Source of the DNA: Chitinophagaceae bacterium
Lineage (GTDB): Bacteria > Bacteroidota > Bacteroidia > Chitinophagales > Chitinophagaceae
Direction: 5' to 3'
DNA: 64,000 nucleotides
NCBI GenBank assembly: GCA_947459295.1
Contig: CANHCY010000008.1
Span: forward strand, 1 to 64,000
The first letter of the stretch is position 1, and each line of letters starts with the position of its first letter. The notes beneath the pieces were generated by a model, which had not been told where the DNA came from, did not search any database, and saw only the letters and a list, made by a program, of their open reading frames with translations. Positions 1-58,418 of the stretch are shown piece by piece. A program made the translations under genes and the position numbers.

Positions 1-117
1 ATTTGTCCTAAACTATGGTATATTGGCATAACAGTGTATTTATTCCGCTGCAATACTAACAATTATTAGTATAAAATAAATTATTATTTTACCTTCGTTT
101 TTCACAATTTATCTTCC

Positions 118-41407: not shown

Positions 41408-42547
41408 ATGAAAAAGTTTTTTAACAACATGGAAGAACGCTTCGTTTTTCCAATTGGAAGAAGATCATGGCAAATTCTATCATTACTTGGTTTAATTGTA
41501 TTATCACTTAGTGTCTTATATTTTGTCGTGAACTCAACGCCAACATCAAGAGAAAACGTGAGTGTAAGCAAAGCTGAAGTTATAGGAGATAAAGTTGATA
41601 CCGCTTCAACAGTAGTTGAAAGCAAAACTGCAATATGCTCCGACCAAGATTATAAAATATGGCTAGACACACTAAAAAAAGATTTACCTAACAGTGAATG
41701 GGTAAAATTAGGCGACTCAACTGAACCATACCTTGAATATGTTAAAGACGAATACGGATCTTACATTCAAGACAGTGAGGGTAATTTTCAATCTTATGAA
41801 AAAAGAGACTTTACACCAAATCCAATGGCAATACCAAATGTATTAGAAGCAATCTATACAAGTAAAGGATTTGACTCTAGTAGTTATTGTGAAAAAATTG
41901 AAATTATAAAAGCATTACACTTTTTAAATAAAAAAACAGAAAAAAATTTCCTAGAAAAAGAAGGGATATACTATTATGGATCAGGTATCGCTGAATTACC
42001 CTCAACGAATTTGATCATTTTAGAAAAATCTTTTGTCTTAAAAACCGCGATTGAATTATCGGATAAAAAAATAAGTAATCTAGACGATTTGAATGAAGCT
42101 TGGCGATATATTAGATACATATCAACAAACAGTGTTTCGGATAAACACGTAGATCTAGCAATTACTACAATTAAAGCACATAGCGAACTAAAAAAGAAAG
42201 AGTATCCGTCAAATAAATATTTTGACATTGCAGAAATGGTTTTCAATTCTAATTTAAAAATCGAAGACTTGTCATCTGCTATTGAAGACTTTAATAAAGA
42301 AATCGCTTTTTATGATACCAATGATTTATATAATTCATTAAGGAAATTCTTAAAATTATATGAAGAAAAAGTTGAAAGAGCAGAAGAGAAAAAAGAAATG
42401 AAAAGAATCGAAAAAAGTCTTCATAGAACACAGTCGTTAACTTATGCAGCTGGTGCATTTTTAGCAATTGTTGCTATCGCCTCCATACTGCTGTTATTTT
42501 CAATTCAATCTTTATTAAAAAATCACGTGGGCAAAAAACCTGAATAA
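41408..42547 (+). CDS. Membrane protein of unknown function with two terminal helices
   Basis: A 379-residue AT-rich gene. One hydrophobic helix lies near the N-terminus (about 24-42, ILSLLGLIVLSLSVLYFVV) and one near the C-terminus (about 347-368, AGAFLAIVAIASILLLFSI), with a charged helical stretch rich in Glu/Lys before the latter that could be a coiled coil. The roughly 300 residues between are mostly polar and acidic and would face the periplasm. No family is recognised. It stands alone and ends at a clear terminator. Base composition resembles the 47-58 kb block more than its neighbours. Confidence 0.7.
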   Translation: MKKFFNNMEERFVFPIGRRSWQILSLLGLIVLSLSVLYFVVNSTPTSRENVSVSKAEVIGDKVDTASTVVESKTAICSDQDYKIWLDTLKKDLPNSEWVKLGDSTEPYLEYVKDEYGSYIQDSEGNFQSYEKRDFTPNPMAIPNVLEAIYTSKGFDSSSYCEKIEIIKALHFLNKKTEKNFLEKEGIYYYGSGIAELPSTNLIILEKSFVLKTAIELSDKKISNLDDLNEAWRYIRYISTNSVSDKHVDLAITTIKAHSELKKKEYPSNKYFDIAEMVFNSNLKIEDLSSAIEDFNKEIAFYDTNDLYNSLRKFLKLYEEKVERAEEKKEMKRIEKSLHRTQSLTYAAGAFLAIVAIASILLLFSIQSLLKNHVGKKPE

Positions 42548-44165: not shown

Positions 44166-45338
44166 ATGAAACCATACCTAACATTATTCGTTTTATGTTG
44201 TACACTATTGAATGCGATTGCTCAAAAAAAGAGTACAGATAACCTCAATATAAATAGCAGCATTACCCCTATTGATTCGTCCAATATTTTTATTGACCCT
44301 GGCTATTATATTTGGTGCGGCAGTAGTATTTTAGGTGAAGATGGCAAGTACTATTTATTTTATGCCCGCTGGCCACACGGACCAAGAGCAAAAGATGATG
44401 ATAGCCTAAACCATATTTTTGATGGATTTAAAGGTTGGCAAAAGTATTCCGAAATTGCAATTGCTGTTTCAGAAAAACCTACTGGCCCTTACAAACATGT
44501 TAAAACAATTTTGAAAGGAAATTTTAACCAACAAAGATGGGACAGGTATACTTTTCACAATCCTCAAGTGAATTATTTTAATGGTCAATATTATTTGTAC
44601 TTTATTAGCAACAGTTTTAATGATAATATGCATTTTACTAAAACACTTGCTACAGAGCAGCTTCACTGGTACAAGTACAATTGCACACAACGCATTGGTA
44701 TGGCATCTTCACCTAGTATTGCAGGTTTTTTAAATGGATCCTTTTATCAAAAACCAGAACATCTCGTAATGCCAGATAGCATTAGAACTTTTGAAGTTAC
44801 TGTTAACCCCTCGATATGCAAAGGACCAGATGGCCGTTATTATATGATGTATAAATCAAGAAAGCCCGACTTAGGGCATATGACTTTTTGGATGGCCGTA
44901 GCAAACAAGCCAGAAGGACCGTTTACCTATTATAGTGAAGTGAGTTCTAGTGCAGAAATGGCATCCGAAGACCCTTATTTATGGTATGATAAAAAACGTA
45001 AAAGATTTTATGCCATTGCGAAATACTTTTCTGCAAAAGGAAAAGCCAATACCGAATTTGGTTCTCTTATTTTACTTACCTCTATAGATGGAAAAGATTG
45101 GAGTATGGCCAATTCATTTTTAGTATCGCCACGCAAGCTAAGTTTTAACAACGGAACAGAAATAAAACTCGCACATTTAGAAAGACCGTTTTTATTATTT
45201 GATAAAAAAGGAAATATGCAAGGCTTATTTGGTGCTGCAGCAGTTAAAAGCCCGTTCAATAATAAAACAACACTGGTTAAACCAGAAGAAAATACTTTTA
45301 ATGTACATATCCCTTTACAATTAAATATACTTCAATGA
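44166..45338 (+). CDS. Exported five-bladed propeller glycosidase (GH43/GH117-like)
   Basis: A 390-residue protein with a signal peptide (cleavage after NAIAQ). The blades repeat short YYLFYARW, YYLYFISN, YYMMYKSR and RFYAIAKYF segments, characteristic of the GH-F/GH-J propeller group. Candidate catalytic acids lie in NIFIDPGYYIWCGSS, the typical N-terminal base position, and in a DPYLWYD segment. Action on alpha-linked sugars of plant or algal polysaccharides is likely; the exact family needs a profile search. It starts 9 bp after the sulfatase and overlaps the next gene by 4 bp. Confidence 0.72.
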   Translation: MKPYLTLFVLCCTLLNAIAQKKSTDNLNINSSITPIDSSNIFIDPGYYIWCGSSILGEDGKYYLFYARWPHGPRAKDDDSLNHIFDGFKGWQKYSEIAIAVSEKPTGPYKHVKTILKGNFNQQRWDRYTFHNPQVNYFNGQYYLYFISNSFNDNMHFTKTLATEQLHWYKYNCTQRIGMASSPSIAGFLNGSFYQKPEHLVMPDSIRTFEVTVNPSICKGPDGRYYMMYKSRKPDLGHMTFWMAVANKPEGPFTYYSEVSSSAEMASEDPYLWYDKKRKRFYAIAKYFSAKGKANTEFGSLILLTSIDGKDWSMANSFLVSPRKLSFNNGTEIKLAHLERPFLLFDKKGNMQGLFGAAAVKSPFNNKTTLVKPEENTFNVHIPLQLNILQ

Positions 45339-46450: not shown

Positions 46451-47293
46451 ATGAAAAAAAGATATTTTTTTATACTACTCTTGTTATGCATAGCTCACTT
46501 AGCGAGTTACGCCCAAGCACAAATACTATATAAAACAGTAGACACGACTCAACTGTATTTAACTGTATACCCTTCTGCAATAAAAGTGCCAGACAATAAA
46601 TCAGCAGCCATGGTTTTCTTTTTTGGTGGCGGATGGAATAGTGGCACTGTTAAACAATTTGAGCCACAAGCTATCTATTTTAGCCAAAGAGGCATGACTT
46701 GTATTCTAGTAGATTATCGGGTAAAAGAAAAGCATAAAGTCACTCCATTCGAATCTTTAAAAGACGCAAAATCAGCTATCAGATATATTAGAGCGCACGC
46801 CAAAGATTTACAAATTGATCCTTCAAAAATTGTAGCTGCTGGTGGATCGGCGGGCGGACATTTAGCAGCTGCCACAGCACTAATTACAGATTACAATGAA
46901 AGCACAGACAATACGTCCGTTAGTTGCATTCCTGACGCACTAGTATTATTTAATCCTGTATTTGATAACGGCCCCGGCGGTTATGGCTATGAAAGAATTG
47001 GAGATGCCTACAAACAGTTTTCGCCACTACACAACATAGTAAGTGGCGCACCACCTACCATTGTTTTTTTGGGAGAAAAAGACCATTTAGTTCCCGTAGA
47101 AACGGCCAAATACTATAAAACTGTTATGGAAAAAGTAAAAAGTAGATGCGACCTATATTTATACGAAGGTCAAGGTCATGGCTTTTTTAATTTCAAGAAT
47201 TTAGAATACTATAAACAAACGGTTTTCGAAGCAGATACATTTTTACAATCCATTGGGTTTTTAAGTAAGGAGCCAATAATCGAAATAAAGTAA
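46451..47293 (+). CDS. Exported alpha/beta-hydrolase esterase (acetyl-esterase-like)
   Basis: A 280-residue enzyme with a signal peptide (cleavage near SYAQ). The oxyanion segment FFFGGGWNSG is followed by the nucleophile elbow GGSAGG (S133); the acid is the Asp of LGEKDHLVP and the base the His of GQGHGFFN. This resembles carbohydrate esterases of the BD-FAE/Axe group. With the sulfatase, propeller glycosidase and SGNH genes it forms a compact four-gene glycan processing unit. It could remove acetyl or feruloyl groups. Confidence 0.87.
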   Translation: MKKRYFFILLLLCIAHLASYAQAQILYKTVDTTQLYLTVYPSAIKVPDNKSAAMVFFFGGGWNSGTVKQFEPQAIYFSQRGMTCILVDYRVKEKHKVTPFESLKDAKSAIRYIRAHAKDLQIDPSKIVAAGGSAGGHLAAATALITDYNESTDNTSVSCIPDALVLFNPVFDNGPGGYGYERIGDAYKQFSPLHNIVSGAPPTIVFLGEKDHLVPVETAKYYKTVMEKVKSRCDLYLYEGQGHGFFNFKNLEYYKQTVFEADTFLQSIGFLSKEPIIEIK

Positions 47294-47426
47294 CGACTGG
47301 TGCAGTGAATATTTGCGGCAAATGTTACATCTAGTAGAATCATTTAGAATAAAATAGTGAAAATGCTACACATATATCTAAATTTCAATATATTTACTCC
47401 CCCATTAAACTTTTTAAACAGATTTT

Positions 47427-47927
47427 ATGAATCGAGTAATTTTGTTTTGCCTTTTAGCAATGGTCAGCTGTTCCAATGAAAGCAATAGTTCTAAAGAACA
47501 AGTAGATCCTAATCAACAAAAAACAGAAATCAATTCGAGTGAAAATTCAAAATCACTTGAAGTTAAGTATTTGGGTATATACCATGGAATACAAGCTCCG
47601 TATTACATGAAAAATCAATTTGGAGACGATATGATCATCAATGGAAAAAAAGTTCCAGTACCAGGCATTGATTACAAATTTATTTTAAAAGAAGAAGGTA
47701 TTGTGAATTTACAACAATCTAGTCTAGAAGATAATACGAGGTATTATTATGATGGAAAGTATTCAATTATTGATGAAGATGAAAATTTTATAAGTATTGC
47801 TTGTAAATTATCAGATGGAAAATCATCGAATCCAGCATATAATTTAAAGATTGCCAAAAGAAATTTAAAAAGTACATGCAAAGGATCTAATGACCCCGAA
47901 TTTGAAATTGAAAAAATAAATAATTAA
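47427..47927 (+). CDS. Lipoprotein of unknown function
   Basis: A 166-residue lipoprotein: the signal peptide ends LAMVSCSNE with Cys16 as probable lipidation site. A Ser/Asn/Lys-rich linker of about 30 residues is followed by a small beta-rich domain (VKYLGIYHGIQAPYYMKN; FILKEEGIVNLQQSS). No family is recognised. The next gene, an NlpC/P60-like hydrolase, begins 1 bp after its stop codon, so the two are likely made together. A modulating or protective role toward that enzyme is a speculative possibility. Confidence 0.6.
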   Translation: MNRVILFCLLAMVSCSNESNSSKEQVDPNQQKTEINSSENSKSLEVKYLGIYHGIQAPYYMKNQFGDDMIINGKKVPVPGIDYKFILKEEGIVNLQQSSLEDNTRYYYDGKYSIIDEDENFISIACKLSDGKSSNPAYNLKIAKRNLKSTCKGSNDPEFEIEKINN

Positions 47928-47928
47928 T

Positions 47929-48477
47929 ATGAATATTACACAGCTATTAAAAATTTGCTTGACTTGCTTTGGTCTGGTTTGTTTCACAATAGCAAATTCG
48001 CAAACAAATAAGCAATTAGAAAAAAGTTCAAATAATTATTGTTCTTGTCAAAATCAAGACTCAACCAATTATGTAGTGAATGAAAACTTTGGAAGCAATA
48101 GAGTATTAGAGATTGGTATGGATATGGCACTTTTTTCAAAAACAATTGTTATTGGTTCATGCTGGGATTTTGTTAATGAGGTATATAAACGCGCTGGTGT
48201 AGCAGCTTCAAAAAAGACGATTTTTAAATCAAAACTCAAAGGCCCCTATGCAAACCAAAACCTTGTAAAGCCTGGTGATTGGATTTATCATATAAATAAA
48301 AGTTATAATAACATAGAGCATAGTGCAATATTTGTATGTTGGAAAGACTTTAAAAATAAAATTGCTATTACACTTAGTTACGCTGGGATGAACCGGTCTG
48401 TACCTGCAAATTATGGTACATACGATTTAAGCAATATATTTGCCATTTTCCGACCTGTAATGGAACTAAAACAATAA
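47929..48477 (+). CDS. Exported NlpC/P60- or CHAP-like cysteine hydrolase
   Basis: A 182-residue protein with a signal peptide (cleavage near IANSQ). The papain-like arrangement of cell-wall amidases is visible: nucleophile C78 in IGSCWDFVNEVYKRAG, then a PGDWIYH strand and the base H131 in NNIEHSAIFV. Two extra Cys residues (NYCSC) lie before the domain. Peptide bonds in peptidoglycan stems are the likely substrate. It sits between a lipoprotein gene and an L,D-transpeptidase gene. The family is inferred from motif order only. Confidence 0.65.
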   Translation: MNITQLLKICLTCFGLVCFTIANSQTNKQLEKSSNNYCSCQNQDSTNYVVNENFGSNRVLEIGMDMALFSKTIVIGSCWDFVNEVYKRAGVAASKKTIFKSKLKGPYANQNLVKPGDWIYHINKSYNNIEHSAIFVCWKDFKNKIAITLSYAGMNRSVPANYGTYDLSNIFAIFRPVMELKQ

Positions 48478-48488
48478 ATAAGCTTACC

Positions 48489-50183
48489 ATGAATAACAAA
48501 TTTCTATCGAAAATATTTATTGTTTCGTTACTTATTTCGAGTATAATTTCCTGTAAATCAAATGATAAAAGTCAGACCACAAGTACTAAACTTATTGCCA
48601 CGGAAATAAAAAACCTATTTGAAAATCAAAAAGAGCCAAAAACTTCAATCGAAGATTCATCAATATTGACAACCCCTAACGAAACTATAGATGCTTATAA
48701 AGATGCCAATTATGAGCCATTATGGATAAAAGATGAAGGCCTGACAAATAATGGCCAAACGCTGATAAATTTCATTACGAATGCAAGAAGCTATGGATTA
48801 ATTCCAGAAGCATATAACGTGCAAAAAATTACAAGTCACTATAACAAACTTCAATTAGATTCACTTTGGGAAAATGAAAGAAAAAATCCAAAAAACTGGG
48901 CTAGAATAGACATCCTATTAACAGATGCTTTTTTATCAATCACTCGAAATTTAGATCGAGGATATATACCATTAGATAGCCTATCAAAAGATGCAACTTA
49001 CAGTGCTGCAAAATACAAAGAGGCATTAATCAATACTAGCAAGACAGATAATTTACTTCAAATTTTAGAATCATTTGAACCAAAATCAAAATCTTATATA
49101 GATCTAAAAAAACTACTTCCTAATTTTTTATCTTCTGCTGATTTTTCAAAGAAGTATACATTTATTGACTACCCAATAACCAATAAAAATAAGTTTATTG
49201 CTCAAATTATTAAAAGATCAAAAGAAGAAAACTTGTTGCCAAATGATGTAACAAATTTAGATTCAATTGAATTAAGTAACCTAGTTAAAAAAATTCAAGA
49301 GAAAAAGAATTTAGAAATTGATGGTAAATATGGAAGACAATTAATTTTGGCATTAAATAATACTGACAGCGAGAAATTTTTAAAGATTGTTATTAATATG
49401 GATAGACTTCGCCGGAATAGAGAAGAGTATCCAAACAGATACCTTTGGGTAAATTTGCCGTCTTTTTATCTACAAGTATTTGAAAATGGTGAAACTAAAA
49501 TCGAGTCGAAAGTAATTATTGGGAAGCCAAATACAAGAACACCTTTAATTACCAGTAAAATCAATCAAATTACGACCTACCCAACTTGGACTATTCCAAC
49601 AAGTATAATTTCAAAAGAAATTTTACCAAACATCAAAAAAAATAATAACTATTTAAACAGAAAAGGGTATTCGATTTTTGATGCAAGCGGCCAAAAGGTA
49701 AACCCCGACTCTGTCAATTGGAGTAGTTACGAGAAAGGAATACCATTTAAGGTTGTTCAGCCCGGTGGTGACGCAAACTCCTTAGGAATTATGAAATTTA
49801 ACTTCCCAAATAAGCACTCCGTATACTTACATGATACAAATCAAAGAGGCTTATTTAATAATAGTTTTAGATCATTAAGCCACGGCTGTGTTAGAGTTCA
49901 AAACTGGGATTCTTTATACCAATATATAATCTTATCAGATAAAAGAGCAAATGCTGACGACATAGCCTCAAATAGCGTTGTAGTAGATTCAGTTAAAACT
50001 TGGCTCAATGCAAAAAAAAGAAGGACAATATCTATAATAAATGAACTTCCAATTTATATTAGGTATTATACAGCTGCATCAAAAAATGGGAAAATCGAAT
50101 TCTACGAAGACGTCTACGGAGAAGATAACAAGATTCGAAATTTAATAATGAAATCAATAAACCCTATAGCAACATTAAACTAA
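48489..50183 (+). CDS. L,D-transpeptidase, YcbB-like, lipoprotein
   Basis: A 564-residue enzyme of the YkuD superfamily in the large YcbB-like form. The signal peptide ends SIISCKS, so Cys22 is probably lipidated. An N-terminal scaffold (YKDANYEPLWIKDEGLTNNGQ) and a peptidoglycan-binding-like stretch precede the catalytic domain (about 315-500), where SHGCVRVQN supplies C467 and YLHDTN the conserved His. Such enzymes make 3-3 crosslinks or attach molecules to peptidoglycan. It ends 1 bp before the convergent CapA-like gene. Confidence 0.9.
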   Translation: MNNKFLSKIFIVSLLISSIISCKSNDKSQTTSTKLIATEIKNLFENQKEPKTSIEDSSILTTPNETIDAYKDANYEPLWIKDEGLTNNGQTLINFITNARSYGLIPEAYNVQKITSHYNKLQLDSLWENERKNPKNWARIDILLTDAFLSITRNLDRGYIPLDSLSKDATYSAAKYKEALINTSKTDNLLQILESFEPKSKSYIDLKKLLPNFLSSADFSKKYTFIDYPITNKNKFIAQIIKRSKEENLLPNDVTNLDSIELSNLVKKIQEKKNLEIDGKYGRQLILALNNTDSEKFLKIVINMDRLRRNREEYPNRYLWVNLPSFYLQVFENGETKIESKVIIGKPNTRTPLITSKINQITTYPTWTIPTSIISKEILPNIKKNNNYLNRKGYSIFDASGQKVNPDSVNWSSYEKGIPFKVVQPGGDANSLGIMKFNFPNKHSVYLHDTNQRGLFNNSFRSLSHGCVRVQNWDSLYQYIILSDKRANADDIASNSVVVDSVKTWLNAKKRRTISIINELPIYIRYYTAASKNGKIEFYEDVYGEDNKIRNLIMKSINPIATLN

Positions 50184-50184
50184 C

Positions 50185-51342
50185 CTATTGCTCTAGTGCC
50201 GTAAATCCAACATTCATGTTTGTCATGTGTTTGTTTGTTTCATTCCAAACTTCCTTAATTCTAGTTTGTTCAATGATACTACTGGTATAAGATAAATGGT
50301 TTACGTTTTTATTGTTGATAGATTCAATAGCATCATACACAGGTAAAATGCGGAATCCATTTTGTGTACTAACATATGTAGGAACAAAATTAGCTTTACT
50401 CACTGATACCTCATTTGTAGCCAAATTTTTAATCAATTTCATTTTCACAATAATACCACAGTCGGTATACTGTTTACGCTGAGCCGAAATAAAGTTCCCC
50501 ATTGAAAAAATTGTAAAGCCAGTTTTATAATCATTAGAAGCATTAACGGGTTGCAAAACATGTGGATGAGAGCCAAATACTAGTAGACCTCCATTTTTAC
50601 GAATATAATTCTCTAACGATTTTTGAGAATCATTAGGAAATCTTTGGTATTCATTACCCCAATGAAGAAAAATCAAAACAACATCTGCTCCAGATTGCTT
50701 AGACTTTAAAATATCTTGTTTTATTTGTAAAGTATCAATAAGATTGACGCAAAAAACTTTGCCGTCTGGAATTTTAATCCCGTTTGTTCCATAGGTGTAA
50801 GCCAATACACCCAATTTGGTATTATTTTTTGTAAGAATTAATGAATTATTTCGTTCATCTAATGAACGAGCCGTACCTGTATGTAAAAAACCTCTATTGT
50901 TAAGCTCAACAATTGTCTTTTCTACTCCAACAAATCCACGGTCTAATGAGTGATTATTCGCTGTCGTTAAAACGTCAAAACCAGCATTTTTTAGTGCATC
51001 CAAATACTGAACTGGCGTATTAAACATTGGGTAACCTGTATAATTCAGCGCAGCCCCTGCTGTAACTGTTTCAAGATTACCGAATGTAAAATCAGCACTC
51101 TCTAAATATTTTTTTACGGGGGCAAAAGCTGGATTAAAATCGTAACCAGTATCTTTTTTAGCTTGATTGAACTGCTGAGAATGACACATTAAATCTCCAA
51201 CAATAGCTAAAGAAACAGTGTCATATAATTCTCCTTTTTTTTGATTGCTTAAATTCGTGTTCCTAGAAGAAATTTCTGAACAAGAAATGATTACAAAAAA
51301 AATTGAGCAAAAAAATAAGTTCCGCGTTATTAAATTATTCAT
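50185..51342 (-). CDS. CapA-family (PGA_cap) metallophosphatase-like lipoprotein
   Basis: A 385-residue lipoprotein (signal peptide ending FVIISCSE). The CapA family fold is recognised by AIVGDLMCHSQQ, FGNLETV, TTANNHSLDRG, LHWGNEYQRFPND and FGSHPHVLQP, the phosphodiesterase-like metal motifs. Relatives act in poly-gamma-glutamate capsule assembly, yet no capsule synthase genes (CapB/C) are nearby, so a different cell-surface role is likely. It is the last gene of a seven-gene minus-strand run, 5 bp after the PBP-like gene. Confidence 0.88.
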   Translation of the reverse strand: MNNLITRNLFFCSIFFVIISCSEISSRNTNLSNQKKGELYDTVSLAIVGDLMCHSQQFNQAKKDTGYDFNPAFAPVKKYLESADFTFGNLETVTAGAALNYTGYPMFNTPVQYLDALKNAGFDVLTTANNHSLDRGFVGVEKTIVELNNRGFLHTGTARSLDERNNSLILTKNNTKLGVLAYTYGTNGIKIPDGKVFCVNLIDTLQIKQDILKSKQSGADVVLIFLHWGNEYQRFPNDSQKSLENYIRKNGGLLVFGSHPHVLQPVNASNDYKTGFTIFSMGNFISAQRKQYTDCGIIVKMKLIKNLATNEVSVSKANFVPTYVSTQNGFRILPVYDAIESINNKNVNHLSYTSSIIEQTRIKEVWNETNKHMTNMNVGFTALEQ

Positions 51343-51347
51343 AAATA

Positions 51348-52307
51348 TTATTTACAGGCTTCGTTTAAAATATCTTTAAAAACTGGACCAGCCACAGATG
51401 CACCGTAATATTGTGGAGCATTTTTCTGGCACTTAATTAAAACGATACAAGAATATTTAGGGTTTGCTGCTGGAGCATACCCAACCATGGAAGATATGTA
51501 TTGTTTTGATTTATAACCATCCTTATTTAAAGCTAAAATAGTTCCTGTTTTGCTAGCTATATCAGTTTTCGAATTATATAAAAGTTGTTTTGAAGTGCCA
51601 TTTTTTGAAACGCCCTGCAATACATCCTTTAATTGCTGCAGTGTACTTGTCTTCTTAAATAAAGATGGATCACCAATTGCCACTCTATTATAAAAATTCA
51701 AAATTTGCATCGGCGACATCATTAATCCGTAACCAAAAGAAATAAATGGTATGGTCATCAAAGAAACTTCATTCTTACCAAATACATCATTTACATTAAA
51801 ATATGTATTTATAGTATTCTTAAAATGATCAATTTCTTGTTCTTTAAGCGTAGCATTAAATTGTTTAGCAACTCCAACATTACTTGATATCTCAACAATA
51901 TTTTTTAATGAAGTGTAGCGTAGTCCAAAATCCTCACTATCGTATACCTTTAAATTTCCAATTGTTGTTGAACCACTTTCAATATCTACTGAATCCAATA
52001 AACTTAGATTGGCATCATCTAATAAATAACCAACAGAAACGGGTATCATAAGTCCACCTGGCTCAATCACACTTGCATAAAGCGAGCTATCTTTTTCGTA
52101 TACAAGCCCATTTTTAGACTTTTTCGAAACAAACGACGATTTTGCTAGAATTTTACCTGTCGCAACTTCCTTTAAAATAATTAACCCATTATCGGCCTGC
52201 TGGGTTTTTAACATTGCTAACAAGCGATTATCAGCAAATGATTGCAGCGAATTTTGGCCGTAACTAAAAAGTGTTATAAAAAGTAAAGGGATAAAATACA
52301 GTTTCAT
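51348..52307 (-). CDS. Penicillin-binding protein homologue lacking catalytic Ser/Lys
   Basis: A 319-residue exported protein consisting only of a transpeptidase-like domain. The usual EPGSTFK box reads EPGGLMI (residues 82-88), so the acylated Ser is Gly85 and the Lys is Ile88. The other motifs persist: SSN (141-143), KTGT (253-256) and the FGYGLMMSPMQI segment. The N-terminal dimerisation domain of class B PBPs is absent. It is therefore probably a pseudoenzyme, perhaps binding stem peptides or a partner. The signal peptide ends FSYGQ. It is flanked by a zincin and CapA-like gene. Confidence 0.8.
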   Translation of the reverse strand: MKLYFIPLLFITLFSYGQNSLQSFADNRLLAMLKTQQADNGLIILKEVATGKILAKSSFVSKKSKNGLVYEKDSSLYASVIEPGGLMIPVSVGYLLDDANLSLLDSVDIESGSTTIGNLKVYDSEDFGLRYTSLKNIVEISSNVGVAKQFNATLKEQEIDHFKNTINTYFNVNDVFGKNEVSLMTIPFISFGYGLMMSPMQILNFYNRVAIGDPSLFKKTSTLQQLKDVLQGVSKNGTSKQLLYNSKTDIASKTGTILALNKDGYKSKQYISSMVGYAPAANPKYSCIVLIKCQKNAPQYYGASVAGPVFKDILNEACK

Positions 52308-52367
52308 GTAAATAATTGAATTAAATTATATTGTAATATTAACGAATACTTTTTATTATACATTCAA

Positions 52368-52850
52368 TTATTTTTTGACAATAATTCCCATCTTACACAA
52401 ATCACTAAGACATTGTTTTGAATAGGTATTTTCAAAATCCCTTGCCTCTCGTTCAATACGGTAATTGTAATAGCCATATTTATTATAGTTTAATAGCTTT
52501 CTAAATTCGGGATCCTTCTTTGACTGAATGTGATGTTTAATTTCGTGGAGTACAGTAGAACATATCTCTGAAAGATTGCCTTCGTGACTTTTTAGATAAA
52601 TTACAATAGAGTTGGTTGAAGGAATGTAAACACCCATTTTAGGCGACTTTTTGTTGTACCTAACAGTTATTGAAGGATAATACTTTACACCATGAGCAAC
52701 TAAAATAGGTCCTGTCCACTTCATCACCTCTCTACAAAACTGCACATATGAGGTATTTAGCTTGTACGTATCTTCCGAACCAAAAAGATATGCTACAAAA
52801 GCAACAATAAAACATAAAATAGAAAAATATAACAACCAATCTGGATTCAT
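52368..52850 (-). CDS. Small membrane-anchored zincin-like protein
   Basis: A 160-residue protein with one N-terminal helix (about 5-23, WLLYFSILCFIVAFVAYLF). The remainder carries HEIKH (H102, E103, H106), a zinc metallopeptidase HExxH motif, and a RIEREARDFEN helix about 30 residues on with candidate third ligands (E133, E135, E140). The short size fits minimal zincins. I do not recognise a named family. It lies 12 bp after a lipoprotein gene and 60 bp before the PBP-like gene. Confidence 0.65.
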   Translation of the reverse strand: MNPDWLLYFSILCFIVAFVAYLFGSEDTYKLNTSYVQFCREVMKWTGPILVAHGVKYYPSITVRYNKKSPKMGVYIPSTNSIVIYLKSHEGNLSEICSTVLHEIKHHIQSKKDPEFRKLLNYNKYGYYNYRIEREARDFENTYSKQCLSDLCKMGIIVKK

Positions 52851-52862
52851 ACTATCTAGCTA

Positions 52863-54164
52863 TTATTTATAAGTATTTGCAGGCCTCTCAACCGTATTAA
52901 AATAAAGCGAAGCATTTCCATTATTTATCATTGCATTAACCTCCTTAGCATCAACTACTGCAACTTTATTATCAGGTAAAACAGCTACTAAAGAATTTCG
53001 CTTTGTTTTTGAAAGTTTAACTTTTTTCCAATCCTTCGGCAAGTAATATACAACAGAATTATCCTCTTCAAACAAGACGAATAACTTTACATTATTAACC
53101 AATGGATCTAATTTTTTCTCGAAATCGAAAGTAACAGACACTTCAGTCAAGTCGCTATTTTTCATTAATTTATCGATATTCCAAATTCCCATTTTTCTAA
53201 TTTGGAAACTACTTACCATATCCGCCTCCGCCTGCAAACGAATTTTTTCATCTTTCATACTTGCAACTCTATTCTCATAATCCAACAATTGCTTTGTAAA
53301 CGAAGTATCTGAAGTAATTACAGGACTTGCAATTATAGACAATGAACGATTTTCTACTCCAGCTCCCTTCACTGTAATTGATCTAGTAAAAGTAAGCTGG
53401 TACTTATTTGTTTTTTTATTAACCGGATTTACAACAACATCATCCCAATTTAAACGCATGAATTTTTCAACAATTTCAGGATCAGTACCATCTACAATTT
53501 TCCATTTTTGATTTTGAAAAGATTTCAAATGGGGCGATTCCTTCAAATCAGCAACAAGTTCAAACTCATTGCTAGCTAATTGCGGTTTTTTAACAAAAGG
53601 CTTCTTAAGAAAATCCATTATTTTATTCAGCGCATTTGTCTTTCGCTCGTTTTGCTTTACAATAAATGTATCACTCACCTGCCAATTTTGATTGTCTTGT
53701 AACTGATATAAACTAAATCCAGTTGCCGGTGAAAAATTTGCAAGCTCAACGCCTATACTTTTACCATTGGCGATAAATAGCTCTTCTTTATTATCAAATG
53801 CCCTAATTTCTATCATTCCTCCAGACTGCAAAAAACCATTTCTAGTGGCATCAACACTCATGGGAATTCCAGACTTAAATATATCTTGTGCAGTATGCAT
53901 CTCCCTAATCTTTATCATTATTTGATTAGAAACTGGAGTCCCATCCAAATGTGCAAAAGTGTTTGGCTCAATATTTACAGCTGTTCCATGGGAAGTAGTA
54001 ATTGTAATGCTCGTATCCTGTTTATATAAAAACAAATTGAAGGGTACGCCATTTGATGCAATAGGCGCTTCTACTTTTTGGGTATAAGAAAGCTTCTTAC
54101 TAGAACAACCCAATACTAAGAAAAATAAAACAAAATATAAAGTGTAATTATTGATAGTTTTCAT
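52863..54164 (-). CDS. Large lipoprotein of unknown function
   Basis: A 433-residue lipoprotein with signal peptide ending LVLGCSSK. The first half (about 45-175) carries a pattern seen in several Bacteroidota surface proteins: a SHGTAVNIEPNTF strand, MIKIREMHTAQDIFKSGIPM and GMIEIRAFDN, likely a beta-rich scaffold. The second half includes a possible helical segment (ENRVASMKDEKIRLQAEAD). No catalytic residues are apparent. It starts 5 bp after the FG-GAP propeller gene and probably forms a surface complex with its neighbours; that is inferred. Confidence 0.6.
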   Translation of the reverse strand: MKTINNYTLYFVLFFLVLGCSSKKLSYTQKVEAPIASNGVPFNLFLYKQDTSITITTSHGTAVNIEPNTFAHLDGTPVSNQIMIKIREMHTAQDIFKSGIPMSVDATRNGFLQSGGMIEIRAFDNKEELFIANGKSIGVELANFSPATGFSLYQLQDNQNWQVSDTFIVKQNERKTNALNKIMDFLKKPFVKKPQLASNEFELVADLKESPHLKSFQNQKWKIVDGTDPEIVEKFMRLNWDDVVVNPVNKKTNKYQLTFTRSITVKGAGVENRSLSIIASPVITSDTSFTKQLLDYENRVASMKDEKIRLQAEADMVSSFQIRKMGIWNIDKLMKNSDLTEVSVTFDFEKKLDPLVNNVKLFVLFEEDNSVVYYLPKDWKKVKLSKTKRNSLVAVLPDNKVAVVDAKEVNAMINNGNASLYFNTVERPANTYK

Positions 54165-54169
54165 GTTTT

Positions 54170-55513
54170 TTAAGGTTTAACTTTTAAATCATAGCAATAC
54201 AAATAACCGTTATAACAATTAAGTAGTAAATCTAAATTTCCATCTTTATTGATATCTGCAATCATGGGAGGAAACTCGGACGCCATTGGCAAACCAAGTC
54301 GATCAAGTACTTTATGCGCTGTTAATGAATAAATTTCAATAAATCCATATTCATAATTTGCATGATCGTGCTGATTTAAAATAATTACACAGCTTGAATC
54401 ACCTTTGTAAGAAAATGTTCTGTTTGAAATAAGAGACTCATATGCATTTCGTTCTTCAATCACATTTTTACCTAAATAATCTACAGTAGGATAAAGATTG
54501 GAACGACTATAGGTCTTATATTGCCCTCGATTATCAATTTCAATTAAAGAATCACGTTGAGCGATGAAATAATTGTTTAATGCAAGTGCATTAACACCCA
54601 TTCCATAAGTACTATTGGATATATCCTTTACAGCAATTTGTTTGCCGTATTTATTTAAAGTAATCAAATGTCTTGTAGCTTTAAATTTATCGTCATAGGT
54701 TTTATTAAAAAAGCTAAAAGATGGCTCTGCTTTAAATCCAGTTTGCATTAAAACAATTTCGGGACTTTCGTACTGTTCATTTAACCACAATAGTTTACCC
54801 GAAGCGCCATTAATTGCATAAAGTTTAGCGTTATACGTTAAGTATACTAAATCCAAAACACCGTCATTTGTTAAATCGACTACAACAGGCTTGGTATAAA
54901 AAGAGCTAGAGTTCGTAAAAAAAGATTTTACTTTAAAAATACCCCTATTATCACCCGGCTTCCAACCCTCAAAATCAGGGGTATAGTAACTCCATATTGC
55001 TTTTCCTGTGATTGGATTAATTGCCTTTACCTCTCCCATTTCTGTTGCATAAATAATTTGCTGAGTGCCCTTATTATTTATCAGCACTGGCTCATGCTCA
55101 ATATCTCCTGATGTTGGGTTCCGAAAAATAATCTTACCATCAAGCGACGTACATAAAAACTCCTCATTATCATTGCCAAAATATAATCGGTTATTATGCA
55201 ACAACAATCCATTGACATCCATATCTCCAAAAGACTCATTGGCGAAATGATTAATAATTGATCCCGCTTTGCGATCAATAGTGTATACTCCAGATTCTTT
55301 GTCTGAAATATAATAATCCATAAAATCAGACCCATTTGATCCGATAATTAAATTATCGTTGGTAATAATTAGATTGGATTTAAAGCTTGCAGAGCCCATT
55401 TGGGTACTCCAATGTAAATCAAATTGTTTATCAATTGGAGGGTATTTGTCAGGCTTTTCGGAACCAAAAAATGAAATAGGCAGAAAAGAAAGCACAAGAA
55501 GAGTGAAACGCAT
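54170..55513 (-). CDS. Exported PQQ/FG-GAP-type beta-propeller protein
   Basis: A 447-residue protein with a signal peptide (cleavage near SFFG). Blade-like repeats are visible: VYTIDRKAGSI, MGEVKAINPITGKAIWSYY and LYAINGASGKLLWLNEQ, together with calcium-loop motifs VVDLTNDGVLDLVYL and IADINKDGNLDLLLN typical of FG-GAP/VCBS propellers. It has no haem site and no clear quinone-binding residues, so a binding rather than enzymatic role is likely. It is the third gene of the minus-strand peptidoglycan-related run. Confidence 0.7.
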   Translation of the reverse strand: MRFTLLVLSFLPISFFGSEKPDKYPPIDKQFDLHWSTQMGSASFKSNLIITNDNLIIGSNGSDFMDYYISDKESGVYTIDRKAGSIINHFANESFGDMDVNGLLLHNNRLYFGNDNEEFLCTSLDGKIIFRNPTSGDIEHEPVLINNKGTQQIIYATEMGEVKAINPITGKAIWSYYTPDFEGWKPGDNRGIFKVKSFFTNSSSFYTKPVVVDLTNDGVLDLVYLTYNAKLYAINGASGKLLWLNEQYESPEIVLMQTGFKAEPSFSFFNKTYDDKFKATRHLITLNKYGKQIAVKDISNSTYGMGVNALALNNYFIAQRDSLIEIDNRGQYKTYSRSNLYPTVDYLGKNVIEERNAYESLISNRTFSYKGDSSCVIILNQHDHANYEYGFIEIYSLTAHKVLDRLGLPMASEFPPMIADINKDGNLDLLLNCYNGYLYCYDLKVKP

Positions 55514-55622
55514 AGTAAAAGTAATTATTAATTAGGAATACTGTTAATAGGGGATCCTAAAAGTATTTCGTTAATTAATAAAATAGCGTTAAGAGAAAGT
55601 TGGCATATCGTTAAATAACAAT

Positions 55623-56366
55623 TTATTTTTTTTGCTTGTACTTATTCCACCTGGCTGCACGACCTCGCACATCCATATGCAAAACCATTGTTCCAGGATA
55701 AAATCCAACACCACCTTTGTTTGCAATAACAGAAGAATCTAAAATATTACGAACAATATTTTTATCGTGAACATCTGCTTTTCTATCTCGATTAATATCC
55801 CCAATGCTTAAATCAAGGGCTGTACCATAAAGGTGTTGGCTCAATGGAGCACCTCCAGCAAGTTGATTGTGACGAGGTGACCGAAATCCGGAGTTAATAT
55901 ATAAAGCATATGGATCATAGCCTGCTTTAAGCAAGCTATCAGATAAATGAAATGCAGACTCGATAAGTTTATCATTGATACACAGATACGCACTACCTGA
56001 TTGCATATGCCATAATCCGGAAATTCGATGCTCTTTAGTAGCTAGCTGAAGTAGCCGATTATTAAAATATATTTTTTTATACAAATCCTTTTTAGGAATT
56101 ACATAAAAGAATTTACTCTTATTAGCTGTGTGATTTTGAAAAGAGAAGCCACTTTGAATACTTTGTGGTAAATCAGAAAATACAACTTTAGGATACTGAT
56201 CAAAAATAAATCTTGCCTCTTTGTATGAAACGACAGCTTTATTACTATTTATCAAATCATAACTCCAGAAAACAAGCTTATGCCTAAAAAGAAAAACAGA
56301 AATTACAATTGACAAAATGCCAAAAAGTACAAATAACAACAATTTTGTCTTAGGCTTTATAAGCAT
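55623..56366 (-). CDS. Membrane-anchored M15-like D,D-/L,D-peptidase
   Basis: A 247-residue protein with one N-terminal helix (about 9-27). The zinc site of the M15/DUF882 fold is seen as SQHLYGTALDLS (H178, D185) and LHMDVRG (H230), and SGFRSPRHN supplies the usual upstream Arg (R162). These enzymes cleave D-Ala-D-Ala or crosslink peptides of peptidoglycan. It follows a muramidase-like gene by 9 bp, so glycan and peptide cleavage are encoded together. Confidence 0.82.
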   Translation of the reverse strand: MLIKPKTKLLLFVLFGILSIVISVFLFRHKLVFWSYDLINSNKAVVSYKEARFIFDQYPKVVFSDLPQSIQSGFSFQNHTANKSKFFYVIPKKDLYKKIYFNNRLLQLATKEHRISGLWHMQSGSAYLCINDKLIESAFHLSDSLLKAGYDPYALYINSGFRSPRHNQLAGGAPLSQHLYGTALDLSIGDINRDRKADVHDKNIVRNILDSSVIANKGGVGFYPGTMVLHMDVRGRAARWNKYKQKK

Positions 56367-56375
56367 ATGCTACAA

Positions 56376-56993
56376 TCAATTTTTACTAAAATACTCCATA
56401 TATCTAATACCTCTTGGGATATAGCTCTTATCGTGCGTCAAATATCTACCAATGAGCGGGACTACTCTTCCGGTATTATGAAAATGGAACGCATCCTTAT
56501 ACCTTTTAGACCTAATTAAATGGCCATATGATTGAGAAATCCATCTCACACTATGATCCACCGAATTATCGCCTTTTAAATCATTAACTTTTATACCTAA
56601 TTCTAAGCATTTATAACCCATTAACTGAAAAGGACCCCATGAAGTTGCTAGATTTCTTAATGCCTTATCTGAAGCATTTCTCAAATCTGCCGTTACCAGA
56701 AACTCATATTTAGCTATCTCTGCTCGCTTTAATTGACTCAATTTTTCATAAACTTTTGGTTCAAACCGATAACCAGGACTTCTTTTTCCAGAAGATTCTA
56801 AGGCACAAAGTGATTTCAAATAAGAAGCGTCCACATTATATTTTTTTGCGGCGTTATCTATCTCTGTTCCATAATTATAAATAACACTCTGATAATTTCC
56901 AACCCTTCCTTTTACGAATGTTGTATAAAGAAAATATAACCCAGCTAATGAAAGCAGCACAATTAATAGTGAAAATTGAATTTTTCGATTCAT
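56376..56993 (-). CDS. Membrane-anchored muramidase/lytic transglycosylase-like protein
   Basis: A 205-residue protein with an N-terminal anchor (about 8-26). The lysozyme-like segment ASYLKSLCALESSGK places a likely catalytic Glu at 66, followed by RFEPKVYEKL and the conserved SWGPFQLMGYKCLELG region, as in N-acetylmuramidase and SLT-type domains. It is the first gene of the seven-gene minus-strand run. Together with the M15-like protein it could open peptidoglycan. The exact hydrolase family was not resolved by eye. Confidence 0.75.
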   Translation of the reverse strand: MNRKIQFSLLIVLLSLAGLYFLYTTFVKGRVGNYQSVIYNYGTEIDNAAKKYNVDASYLKSLCALESSGKRSPGYRFEPKVYEKLSQLKRAEIAKYEFLVTADLRNASDKALRNLATSWGPFQLMGYKCLELGIKVNDLKGDNSVDHSVRWISQSYGHLIRSKRYKDAFHFHNTGRVVPLIGRYLTHDKSYIPRGIRYMEYFSKN

Positions 56994-57245
56994 ATAATAA
57001 ATTTAAAGAATAAAGTTATACAAAAGAATTAAACAATATAGTGTGTGCTAAATTTATTAGAACATACTATATATATATATATTATTATCTTAGAATATGT
57101 TTATTTGGACTTACAAGTTTGTAGAGAAAGTTTTATAATTTAAACAATTAGTTAAATATTGACATAAATGACAGAATTGGCGTATTAGAAAATAGTTAGT
57201 AGGAATTTAGTATATTAGCATGTATAACTTAAATTATAATTAATT
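56994..57245. other. Divergent intergenic region with (TA)n tract
   Basis: A 252-bp, very AT-rich region between divergent peptidoglycan-related genes. It holds a (TA) dinucleotide run at 57068-57082 and must carry promoters for both directions. A weak TATATTAG (57211-57218) resembles a -7 box for the rightward gene, but no well-spaced -33 element was found. No RNA gene is seen. Confidence 0.4.
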
Positions 57246-57761
57246 ATGAAAAAAATCACGTGGATTATAGTTACATCGATTTTTCTAGTTGCAATAGCCT
57301 ATTATTTTTATTCCGACAAAGAAATCGGAAACGGTATCAAAATTGACAAAATTATTGTTTACAAGTCAAAAAGAGAGTTATCAACATACGCAAATGGCTC
57401 ATTAATCAAAACTTTCAAAATTTCTATTGGAAAAAATTCGACCGGTAAAAAAGAATTTGAGGGCGACTATAAAACACCCGAAGGCAAGTATTTAATCTCA
57501 TCAAAAGCGCCACATCCATTATATCATAAATACCTTTACGTCTCTTATCCAAATAAAAGCGACATATTAAATGCCAAAAAGTTAAAAAAGGATGTTGGAG
57601 GTCAAATACTAATTCATGGCCTGCACAAAAAATATACCTTAATAGGTAATTTTCATAGATTTTGGGATTGGACAAAGGGGTGTATGGCACTAACAAATAA
57701 TGAAATAGACGATTTATATGATGCAGTCAATGTGAAAACACCCATCGAAATATATCCATAA
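57246..57761 (+). CDS. Small exported L,D-transpeptidase (YkuD/ErfK family)
   Basis: A 171-residue enzyme with an N-terminal helix (about 5-21) and the YkuD domain filling the rest. Catalytic residues are visible: H124 in ILIHGLHKK and C146 in DWTKGCMALTN. No LysM or peptidoglycan-binding domain is attached. It would exchange D-amino acids, make 3-3 crosslinks or act as an L,D-carboxypeptidase. It is co-directional with the YiiX-like gene 12 bp downstream and divergent from the muramidase gene. Confidence 0.9.
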   Translation: MKKITWIIVTSIFLVAIAYYFYSDKEIGNGIKIDKIIVYKSKRELSTYANGSLIKTFKISIGKNSTGKKEFEGDYKTPEGKYLISSKAPHPLYHKYLYVSYPNKSDILNAKKLKKDVGGQILIHGLHKKYTLIGNFHRFWDWTKGCMALTNNEIDDLYDAVNVKTPIEIYP

Positions 57762-57773
57762 TAAACAAATACT

Positions 57774-58397
57774 ATGAAAACAAGGTTATTTCTAATTCTA
57801 CTTATTGGAATCTTAGTTATCGGAAGCCTTAGGGCATATAAACCTAATGCTGTTGAAATTAAGGATGGAGATATTATTTTTCAAACCTCAAAATCAGAAC
57901 AAAGCAAACCCATTCAAATCGCAACAAAGTCAATATACTCCCATTGTGGCATTATTTACAAAAAAGGAAATGACTTATTTGTTTATGAGGCGGTTGGACC
58001 AGTAAAACTTACACCGCTTAAACAATGGATTGCTCGTGGAAAAAATAATAGTTATGTGATAAAGCGACTAAAAAATGGTGAAAAATTAATTACGCCTGAT
58101 GTATTATCCAAAATGAAAAAAGTTGGAGACCAACTAAAAGGCAAGCCTTATGATACTACTTTTGAATGGTCTGATAACAAGATATATTGCTCAGAACTTG
58201 TTTGGAAAATATATCAACGTGGTGCTGGTATTGAAATTGGAAAATTACAGCGCCTGAAAGAATTTGATTTGTCGAATGCGATTGTAAAAGCTATCATGAA
58301 AAAACGTTACCGCGGCAAAATACCTACAGACGAAATTGTGATTTCACCGGGTTCATTATTCGATAGTGAACTATTGGTAACAATTTTAAATAAATAA
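57774..58397 (+). CDS. YiiX/YebB-like permuted NlpC/P60 cysteine hydrolase
   Basis: A 207-residue exported or anchored protein (hydrophobic residues 4-18). The circularly permuted papain-like order is clear: DGDIIFQTS near 31, H57 in YSHCGIIYK, an acidic residue in YEAVGPV (E72), and the nucleophile C139 in KIYCSELVWKIYQ. These enzymes cleave amide or ester bonds in peptidoglycan or lipids. It forms a two-gene operon with the L,D-transpeptidase and converges on the S9 peptidase gene. Confidence 0.87.
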   Translation: MKTRLFLILLIGILVIGSLRAYKPNAVEIKDGDIIFQTSKSEQSKPIQIATKSIYSHCGIIYKKGNDLFVYEAVGPVKLTPLKQWIARGKNNSYVIKRLKNGEKLITPDVLSKMKKVGDQLKGKPYDTTFEWSDNKIYCSELVWKIYQRGAGIEIGKLQRLKEFDLSNAIVKAIMKKRYRGKIPTDEIVISPGSLFDSELLVTILNK

Positions 58398-58418
58398 CGA
58401 GTTGTTTTAAACTCCCTC

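Follow-up and report, generated by a model that had tools for sequence, protein, structure and literature searches.

Studies of enzymes that remodel the bacterial cell wall usually treat them as housekeeping functions encoded at scattered places on the chromosome. A described counterpart of the locus reported here comes from E. coli: cells growing on YcbB as the sole active transpeptidase are proposed, in the parts of two reports drawn on here, to need a beta-lactam-insensitive endopeptidase, and the endopeptidase that cuts 3-3 links for YcbB is possibly or probably MepK (PMC9249393, PMC12729407). A further point of reference is the ZU5 domain, which, in the sections of the source used here, frequently occurs together with SpvB and beta-propeller domains in polymorphic toxins and has CxH as its autopeptidase motif (PMC3482391).

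Layout and composition of the block

The window, i.e. the whole 64,000-nucleotide stretch that was analysed, is contig C8 of a 2.3-Mb Chitinophagaceae genome (G000) that is 83% complete. An initial annotation had described twelve consecutive genes at 47427-58397, and all twelve are present there as consecutive open reading frames (ORFs), with g01-g03 on the plus strand, g04-g10 as a seven-gene run on the minus strand, and g11-g12 on the plus strand again.

46451..47293, plus strand: left boundary gene, alpha/beta hydrolase (abhydrolase), taken as native flank, outside the block
47294..58418, no strand: putative inserted segment, flanked by the stop codons of the abhydrolase and S9-peptidase genes; block-free sites in G752 and G213
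47427..47927, plus strand: g01, small lipoprotein with lipobox MVSC; weakly NlpE-like (E 0.095, sub-threshold)
47929..48477, plus strand: g02, NlpC/P60-like and exported, with SCWDF and HSAIF as its Cys and His motifs; conserved in G202
48489..50183, plus strand: g03, YcbB-type L,D-transpeptidase, lipoprotein with lipobox
50185..51342, minus strand: g04, CapA/PGA_cap lipoprotein (PGA_cap 1.2e-67)
51348..52307, minus strand: g05, stand-alone FtsI-related pseudo-transpeptidase (Transpeptidase 1.2e-23)
52368..52850, minus strand: g06, membrane-anchored zincin, HEIKH; HExxH at residue 102
52863..54164, minus strand: g07, ZU5-fold lipoprotein, partner of g08; no Pfam match
54170..55513, minus strand: g08, secreted PQQ/FG-GAP beta-propeller; PQQ_2 27.7 versus a cut-off of 27.6, a bare pass
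55623..56366, minus strand: g09, membrane-anchored M15 peptidase, weakly MepK-like (Peptidase_M15_3 7.9e-11)
56376..56993, minus strand: g10, membrane-anchored muramidase with a lysozyme/lytic-transglycosylase fold
57246..57761, plus strand: g11, small YkuD L,D-transpeptidase (YkuD 1.7e-20); KGCMAL motif
57774..58397, plus strand: g12, C92 YiiX-like papain-fold hydrolase (Peptidase_C92 9.5e-30); HCGII and YCSEL

Six of these proteins clearly pass the curated Pfam cut-offs (g03 with Scaffold and YkuD, g04 with PGA_cap, g05 with Transpeptidase, g09 with M15_3, g11 with YkuD, and g12 with C92), and g02 as NlpC/P60 (15.8 versus 23), g10 as muramidase (17.6 versus 22.3) and the zincin g06 score under theirs. 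Using a simple heuristic, an N-terminal hydrophobic segment was found in all twelve proteins and a lipobox in four, in agreement with the original description of every product as apparently exported or anchored; however, the segment is shared by all four flank genes put through the identical test, and export therefore does not set the block apart.

The block had also been called more AT-rich than its flanks, and this holds: its GC content is 0.315, compared with 0.374 on each flank. Mean GC3 is 0.249 for the 12 block genes and 0.297 for the 41 other window ORFs of at least 120 aa (one-sided Mann-Whitney p = 1.7e-4), and the block mean is the lowest among the 42 contiguous 12-gene runs in the window. 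The distributions overlap, with 22 of the 41 other ORFs at or under the highest block value, and single kilobases elsewhere in the window (28-29, 35-36, and 41-43 kb) are comparably AT-rich (0.30-0.32). The related block in a second genome, G202, is AT-rich too (GC 0.313 versus 0.361).

Distribution and history in related genomes

Of the 147 genus genomes, 8 have a match to the GDSL gene that lies left of the block, and the locus was read in seven of them, including G000; G204, whose GDSL match is 51% identical, is outside the seven. The slot contains the block in G000 and G202, is empty in G752 and G213, and holds another ORF in G784, G763, and G726. In G752 (54% complete), the abhydrolase and S9-peptidase stop codons lie 1 bp apart, with no block, and in G213 (98% complete) the GDSL gene sits against S9, with neither block nor abhydrolase. 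The abhydrolase is present without the block in G752, G784, G763, and G726. An ORF of ~266 aa occupies the slot in G784, G763, and G726 (L144, L145, L146), followed by a 348-aa ORF in G726; the slot in G726 holds further genes, and the G763 contig stops before S9.

In G202 (97% complete), nine genes, g02-g10, are found in identical order and orientation, attached to the same abhydrolase-GDSL-sulfatase left flank. The linkage check proposed for the seven minus-strand genes therefore came out positive and extends to g03-g02. Genes g01, g11, and g12 have no counterpart in the G202 block (L116), and are for that reason maybe chance additions. The S9 ortholog was not found in G202, so the right boundary differs there. 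Among the 147 genus genomes, g10 (E<=1e-3) and g04 (E<=1e-60) are found only in G000 and G202. The propeller gene g08 is more widely spread, occurring in 4 of the 147 genus genomes, 3 of 394 family genomes (E<=1e-20), and 20 of 396 order genomes (E<=1e-3), where the matches in G528, G155, and G532, like the window copy, are full-length and strong, and that in G273 is weaker. Ten genus loci anchored on S9 (L094-L102, L107), several of them short or without the left flank, contained no block gene.

The left side of the window is itself variable at two further places. An AT-rich 379-aa ORF at 41408-42547 is present in G202 and missing at that place in G213, G784, G763, and G726, and a GH43-type gene at 44166-45338, between the sulfatase and GDSL genes, is missing there in G213, G202, G784, G763, G726, and G752.

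Comparing G000 with G202, the proportion of synonymous differences (pS) ranges from 0.60 to 0.73 in the nine common block genes and from 0.45 to 0.57 in eight flank genes, without overlap, in values so near saturation that only their ranking is to be trusted. AT-richness does not account for the high block pS, because among the flank genes pS is lowest in the one whose GC3 is also lowest (379 aa). The excess of synonymous divergence over the flanks suggests that the block has its own history and disfavours simple vertical inheritance with the flanks. At the level of codon comparison, dN/dS values of 0.03-0.27 show the nine common genes to be under purifying selection. In a tree built from 24 of the best 120 g08 proteins and 9 copies from the loci, a single 11-row clade with support of 99/99 unites the window, G202, and three metagenomic copies. 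Block linkage is known or deduced for these five rows and not for the other six; the G800 and G784 copies lie outside this clade. For the metagenomic copies, linkage of g08, g10, and g05 was deduced from identical longest-contig sizes (185185, 387734, 183996, and 9141).

Taken together, the empty sites in two close relatives, the restriction of g04 and g10 to the same 2 of 147 genomes, the nine-gene order kept in G202, and the synonymous divergence above the flanks support the transfer reading, and with it the initial suggestion of a transferred wall-remodelling system. Related bacteria seem to pass the block among themselves as one unit. Uniform composition with dispersed orthologues, named beforehand as the outcome that would count against this, was not seen. 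Alternatively, the pattern may reflect an ancient gain, losses in G752 and G213, plus recombination. Insertion guided by a transposon or tRNA was rejected, as no tRNA was found in the window and no detected repeat could be tied to both boundaries. No description of the block was found in the open-licence literature searched.

Wall enzymes, the pseudo-transpeptidase, and the g08-g07 pair

Judged by residue patterns that we take to mark the active sites, including H-x6-D ... H for the M15 zinc ligands, most block enzymes appear to keep their catalytic motifs, namely both L,D-transpeptidase types, the M15 peptidase, the lysozyme-fold muramidase, and the papain-like proteins. In g03, Scaffold (92.9 bits, 3.6e-26) and YkuD (87.3 bits, 1.9e-24) both score over the Pfam cut-offs, and the catalytic SHGC motif is present (SHGCVR at residue 464). 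As g03 is under the NCBIfam cut-off for the LdtD equivalog (PRK10594; 189 versus 425 bits), it is by sequence a relative of the YcbB/LdtD family rather than an equivalog. A second YcbB relative, 30% identical to g03, is encoded elsewhere in the genome, and g03 is therefore an extra, diverged copy. The M15 pattern is seen in g09 as HxxxxxxD at 178 and LHMD at 229. This protein is far under the NCBIfam MepK equivalog cut-off (27.8 versus 185 bits), so any specificity for 3-3 links is a guess.

The muramidase call for g10, despite its sub-cut-off Pfam score, is supported by a predicted lysozyme-type fold with an invariant Glu; fold and catalytic Glu together place it in the lysozyme/lytic transglycosylase superfamily. 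Phage endolysins are among its fold matches, and a sequence search against solved structures gave no match. There are 501 homologues at E<=1e-3, and of the 120 shown, 119 have no Pfam domain, the sole exception being P0153, which bears FHA domains only. The homologues P0121-P0240 make up a family of small membrane-anchored muramidases, and those few with a source name are from Bacteroidota.

The initial annotation had read g05 as a PBP pseudoenzyme, and the SxxK motif is indeed absent: where FtsI-type relatives read EPGSTFKL or similar, g05 reads EPGGLMIP, with GLMI at the SxxK site, so that both the serine and the lysine are missing in the window copy. We compared 53 g05-like matches plus the window copy with 67 FtsI-type relatives, taken from the best 120 of 218 homologues and divided by rank at an identity gap. 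After dropping rows gapped at the motif (2 of 54 and 15 of 67, respectively), the SxxK lysine is found in 0 of 52 rows of the g05 group and the serine in 26 of 52, whereas 51 of 52 FtsI-type rows have both residues. SSN and KTG are present in the window copy; across the g05 group, SSNVG occurs in 47 of 54 rows, SxN in nearly all, and KTG in most, with KTA instead in some. A PASTA domain is listed for 62 of the 67 FtsI-type relatives and not for the other 5. The dN/dS of g05 between G000 and G202, 0.27, is the highest in the block and well below 1. Since the lysine is gone, SxN and KTG are mostly retained, and dN/dS is well below 1, g05 is, on this alignment evidence, a maintained, non-catalytic family beside FtsI.

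Wherever g08 and g07 were both read in a locus, they lie next to each other. Outside the block, their neighbours include other exported enzymes of wall type, such as M23 and CAP proteins in L034, with close homologues in L114, and DUF5715, M54, and YkuD_2 proteins in L037, with homologues in L036 and L039. Near the pair in L039 are homologues of g12 and g09, the g12 homologue, 58% identical, adjoining one of g06. The zincin gene g06 is no more than a few kb away from g07 in L037, L039, and L114, and is present in L129 on a stretch from which g07 is absent; its HExxH is invariant across three sequences. The neighbours of the pair in L038, L103, L105, and L106, viewed without a Pfam scan, include no recognised wall enzyme, and those in L104, viewed likewise, include nothing beyond a CAP-like protein. 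The association of g08-g07 with wall enzymes is thus frequent, but not universal. The fold test assigns a ZU5 fold to g07, which found two weak matches only in the solved-structure sequence search. An alignment of nine sequences contains no invariant Cys or His, indicating that g07 lacks the C-terminal CxH autopeptidase motif.

Homologues of g08-g07 and/or g06 also occur on accessory-looking contigs of G806, G800, G784, and G803 (L037, L114, L115, L128-L131). These carry a DnaB-like helicase and an Eco57I-type methylase by Pfam, an SbcD-like protein by PHROG, and very large ORFs that are presumably RecBCD-subunit-like; no viral structural gene was noticed there, most of the ORFs being without a scan.

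Proposed role and comparison with known systems

We propose, with a probability of about 0.5, that the block forms an exchangeable module whose envelope-anchored products would remodel the cell's own peptidoglycan. Its mode of action is probably 3-3 cross-linking by an L,D-transpeptidase together with an endopeptidase. The muramidase g10 would open glycan strands, g09 (M15), g02 (NlpC-like), and g12 (C92) would cut stem peptides or cross-links, and g03, plus g11 in the window genome, would re-join stems through 3-3 bonds. The result would be a wall that depends less on D,D-transpeptidases and is tougher under envelope or wall-targeting stress, analogous to the proposed working of the E. coli YcbB-MepK pair. 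That logic is plausible here given the YcbB relationship of g03 and the weak MepK similarity of the M15 peptidase g09. In this scheme, g05 would probably bind stems or a divisome partner without any catalysis, and g08-g07 may serve as an envelope scaffold or sensor that is reused with different wall enzymes assembled next to it. We also put forward, tentatively and at rather long odds, a bolder idea: a mobile, self-contained kit whose cutting enzymes and L,D-transpeptidases would convert the wall from PBP-made to 3-3 cross-links, in which a captured and disarmed FtsI transpeptidase domain, retained family-wide without the SxxK lysine, competes with or gates the native divisome and swappable wall enzymes sit beside a reusable platform of propeller and ZU5 lipoprotein.

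That the site holds other ORFs in G784, G763, and G726, that g01, g11, and g12 set G000 apart from G202, and that g08-g07 stand without recognised wall enzymes in several loci would each suit an accessory-gene slot without common function, where unrelated AT-rich exported genes collect and the apparent wall theme comes from chance and lenient annotation. We regard this as unlikely, since the two diverged copies agree in how nine genes are ordered and oriented, g04 and g10 are found together in the same two of 147 genus genomes, and wall enzymes recur beside g08-g07 at other loci. Protection against wall attack, also raised by the initial annotation, with altered cross-links or turnover defeating foreign amidases, muramidases, or beta-lactams and the pseudo-PBP as a decoy, is in our judgement quite unlikely. 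It would fit the patchy distribution of g08 within the genus, the conservation of the inactive PBP domain, and the beta-lactam resistance that PBP bypass by YcbB gives in E. coli, as described in part of PMC9249393. However, no immunity-type inhibitor gene was recognised, and C. difficile reportedly shows beta-lactam resistance without a need for canonical L,D-transpeptidases, in the portion of PMC10792238 used here. A PADLOC scan of 10 of the 12 proteins (all but g01 and g11) gave just one weak match (g05, E 0.0096), which also speaks against filing the block as a known defence system.

A role of the hydrolases as effectors or endolysins, possibly left over from a degraded prophage, we consider very improbable. 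In a scan that covered all proteins but g01 and g04, PHROG profiles match g06, g09, g10, g11, and g12; those matched by g09 (8.2e-13) and g10 (1.5e-5) are of endolysins, and that matched by g06 (2e-5) is of a phage metallo-protease. Given these matches, the block genes may have a distant phage link. The endolysins among the g10 fold matches and the frequent ZU5 and beta-propeller combinations in polymorphic toxins, noted in the consulted part of PMC3482391, also speak for an effector or endolysin role. Against this, IMG/VR scans with a few short patterns each yielded no confirmed relative of g05, g06, g07, g08, or g10, and a search of 50,697 phage records, run with g08 and g10 and not g09, gave no match. 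On these searches, a phage origin appears unlikely. Plasmid records gave no match for g08. Pfam recognised no delivery gene, toxin-immunity pair, or phage structural gene in the 12 block genes. The enzymes appear to be tethered to the envelope of the cell that makes them, and the activity of L,D-transpeptidases is to build wall, not to lyse it. These points disfavour antagonism or phage lysis, and the antagonism locus offered by the initial annotation becomes less likely; the initial interpretation as a whole is partly supported.

If a module remodelling the cell's own wall is exchanged as a unit, wall chemistry itself would be a horizontally traded trait in these Bacteroidota. The g05 family, for its part, offers a defined set of conserved pseudo-PBPs for asking what a non-catalytic transpeptidase domain does.

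Compared with known proteins, g10 differs from goose-type lysozymes, lytic transglycosylases, and phage endolysins by its N-terminal hydrophobic anchor. The next relatives of g05 are the mostly PASTA-bearing FtsI-type class B PBPs, with which it has SxN and KTG in common; unlike them, it is stand-alone, without PASTA and, in 52 of 52 group rows, without the SxxK lysine. With the ZU5-superfamily surface proteins and polymorphic toxins described in the part of PMC3482391 considered here, g07 has a ZU5-type fold in common; unlike those proteins, it has no CxH motif, and g07 and g08 are separate genes. The E. coli YcbB (LdtD)-MepK pathway shares with the block a Scaffold plus YkuD transpeptidase with SHGC and an M15-type peptidase, here weakly MepK-like. 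Unlike in E. coli, g03 and g09 are both under the equivalog cut-offs, and the enzymes are gathered, along with a muramidase, a pseudo-PBP, a propeller, and a ZU5-fold lipoprotein, in one apparently exchangeable block.
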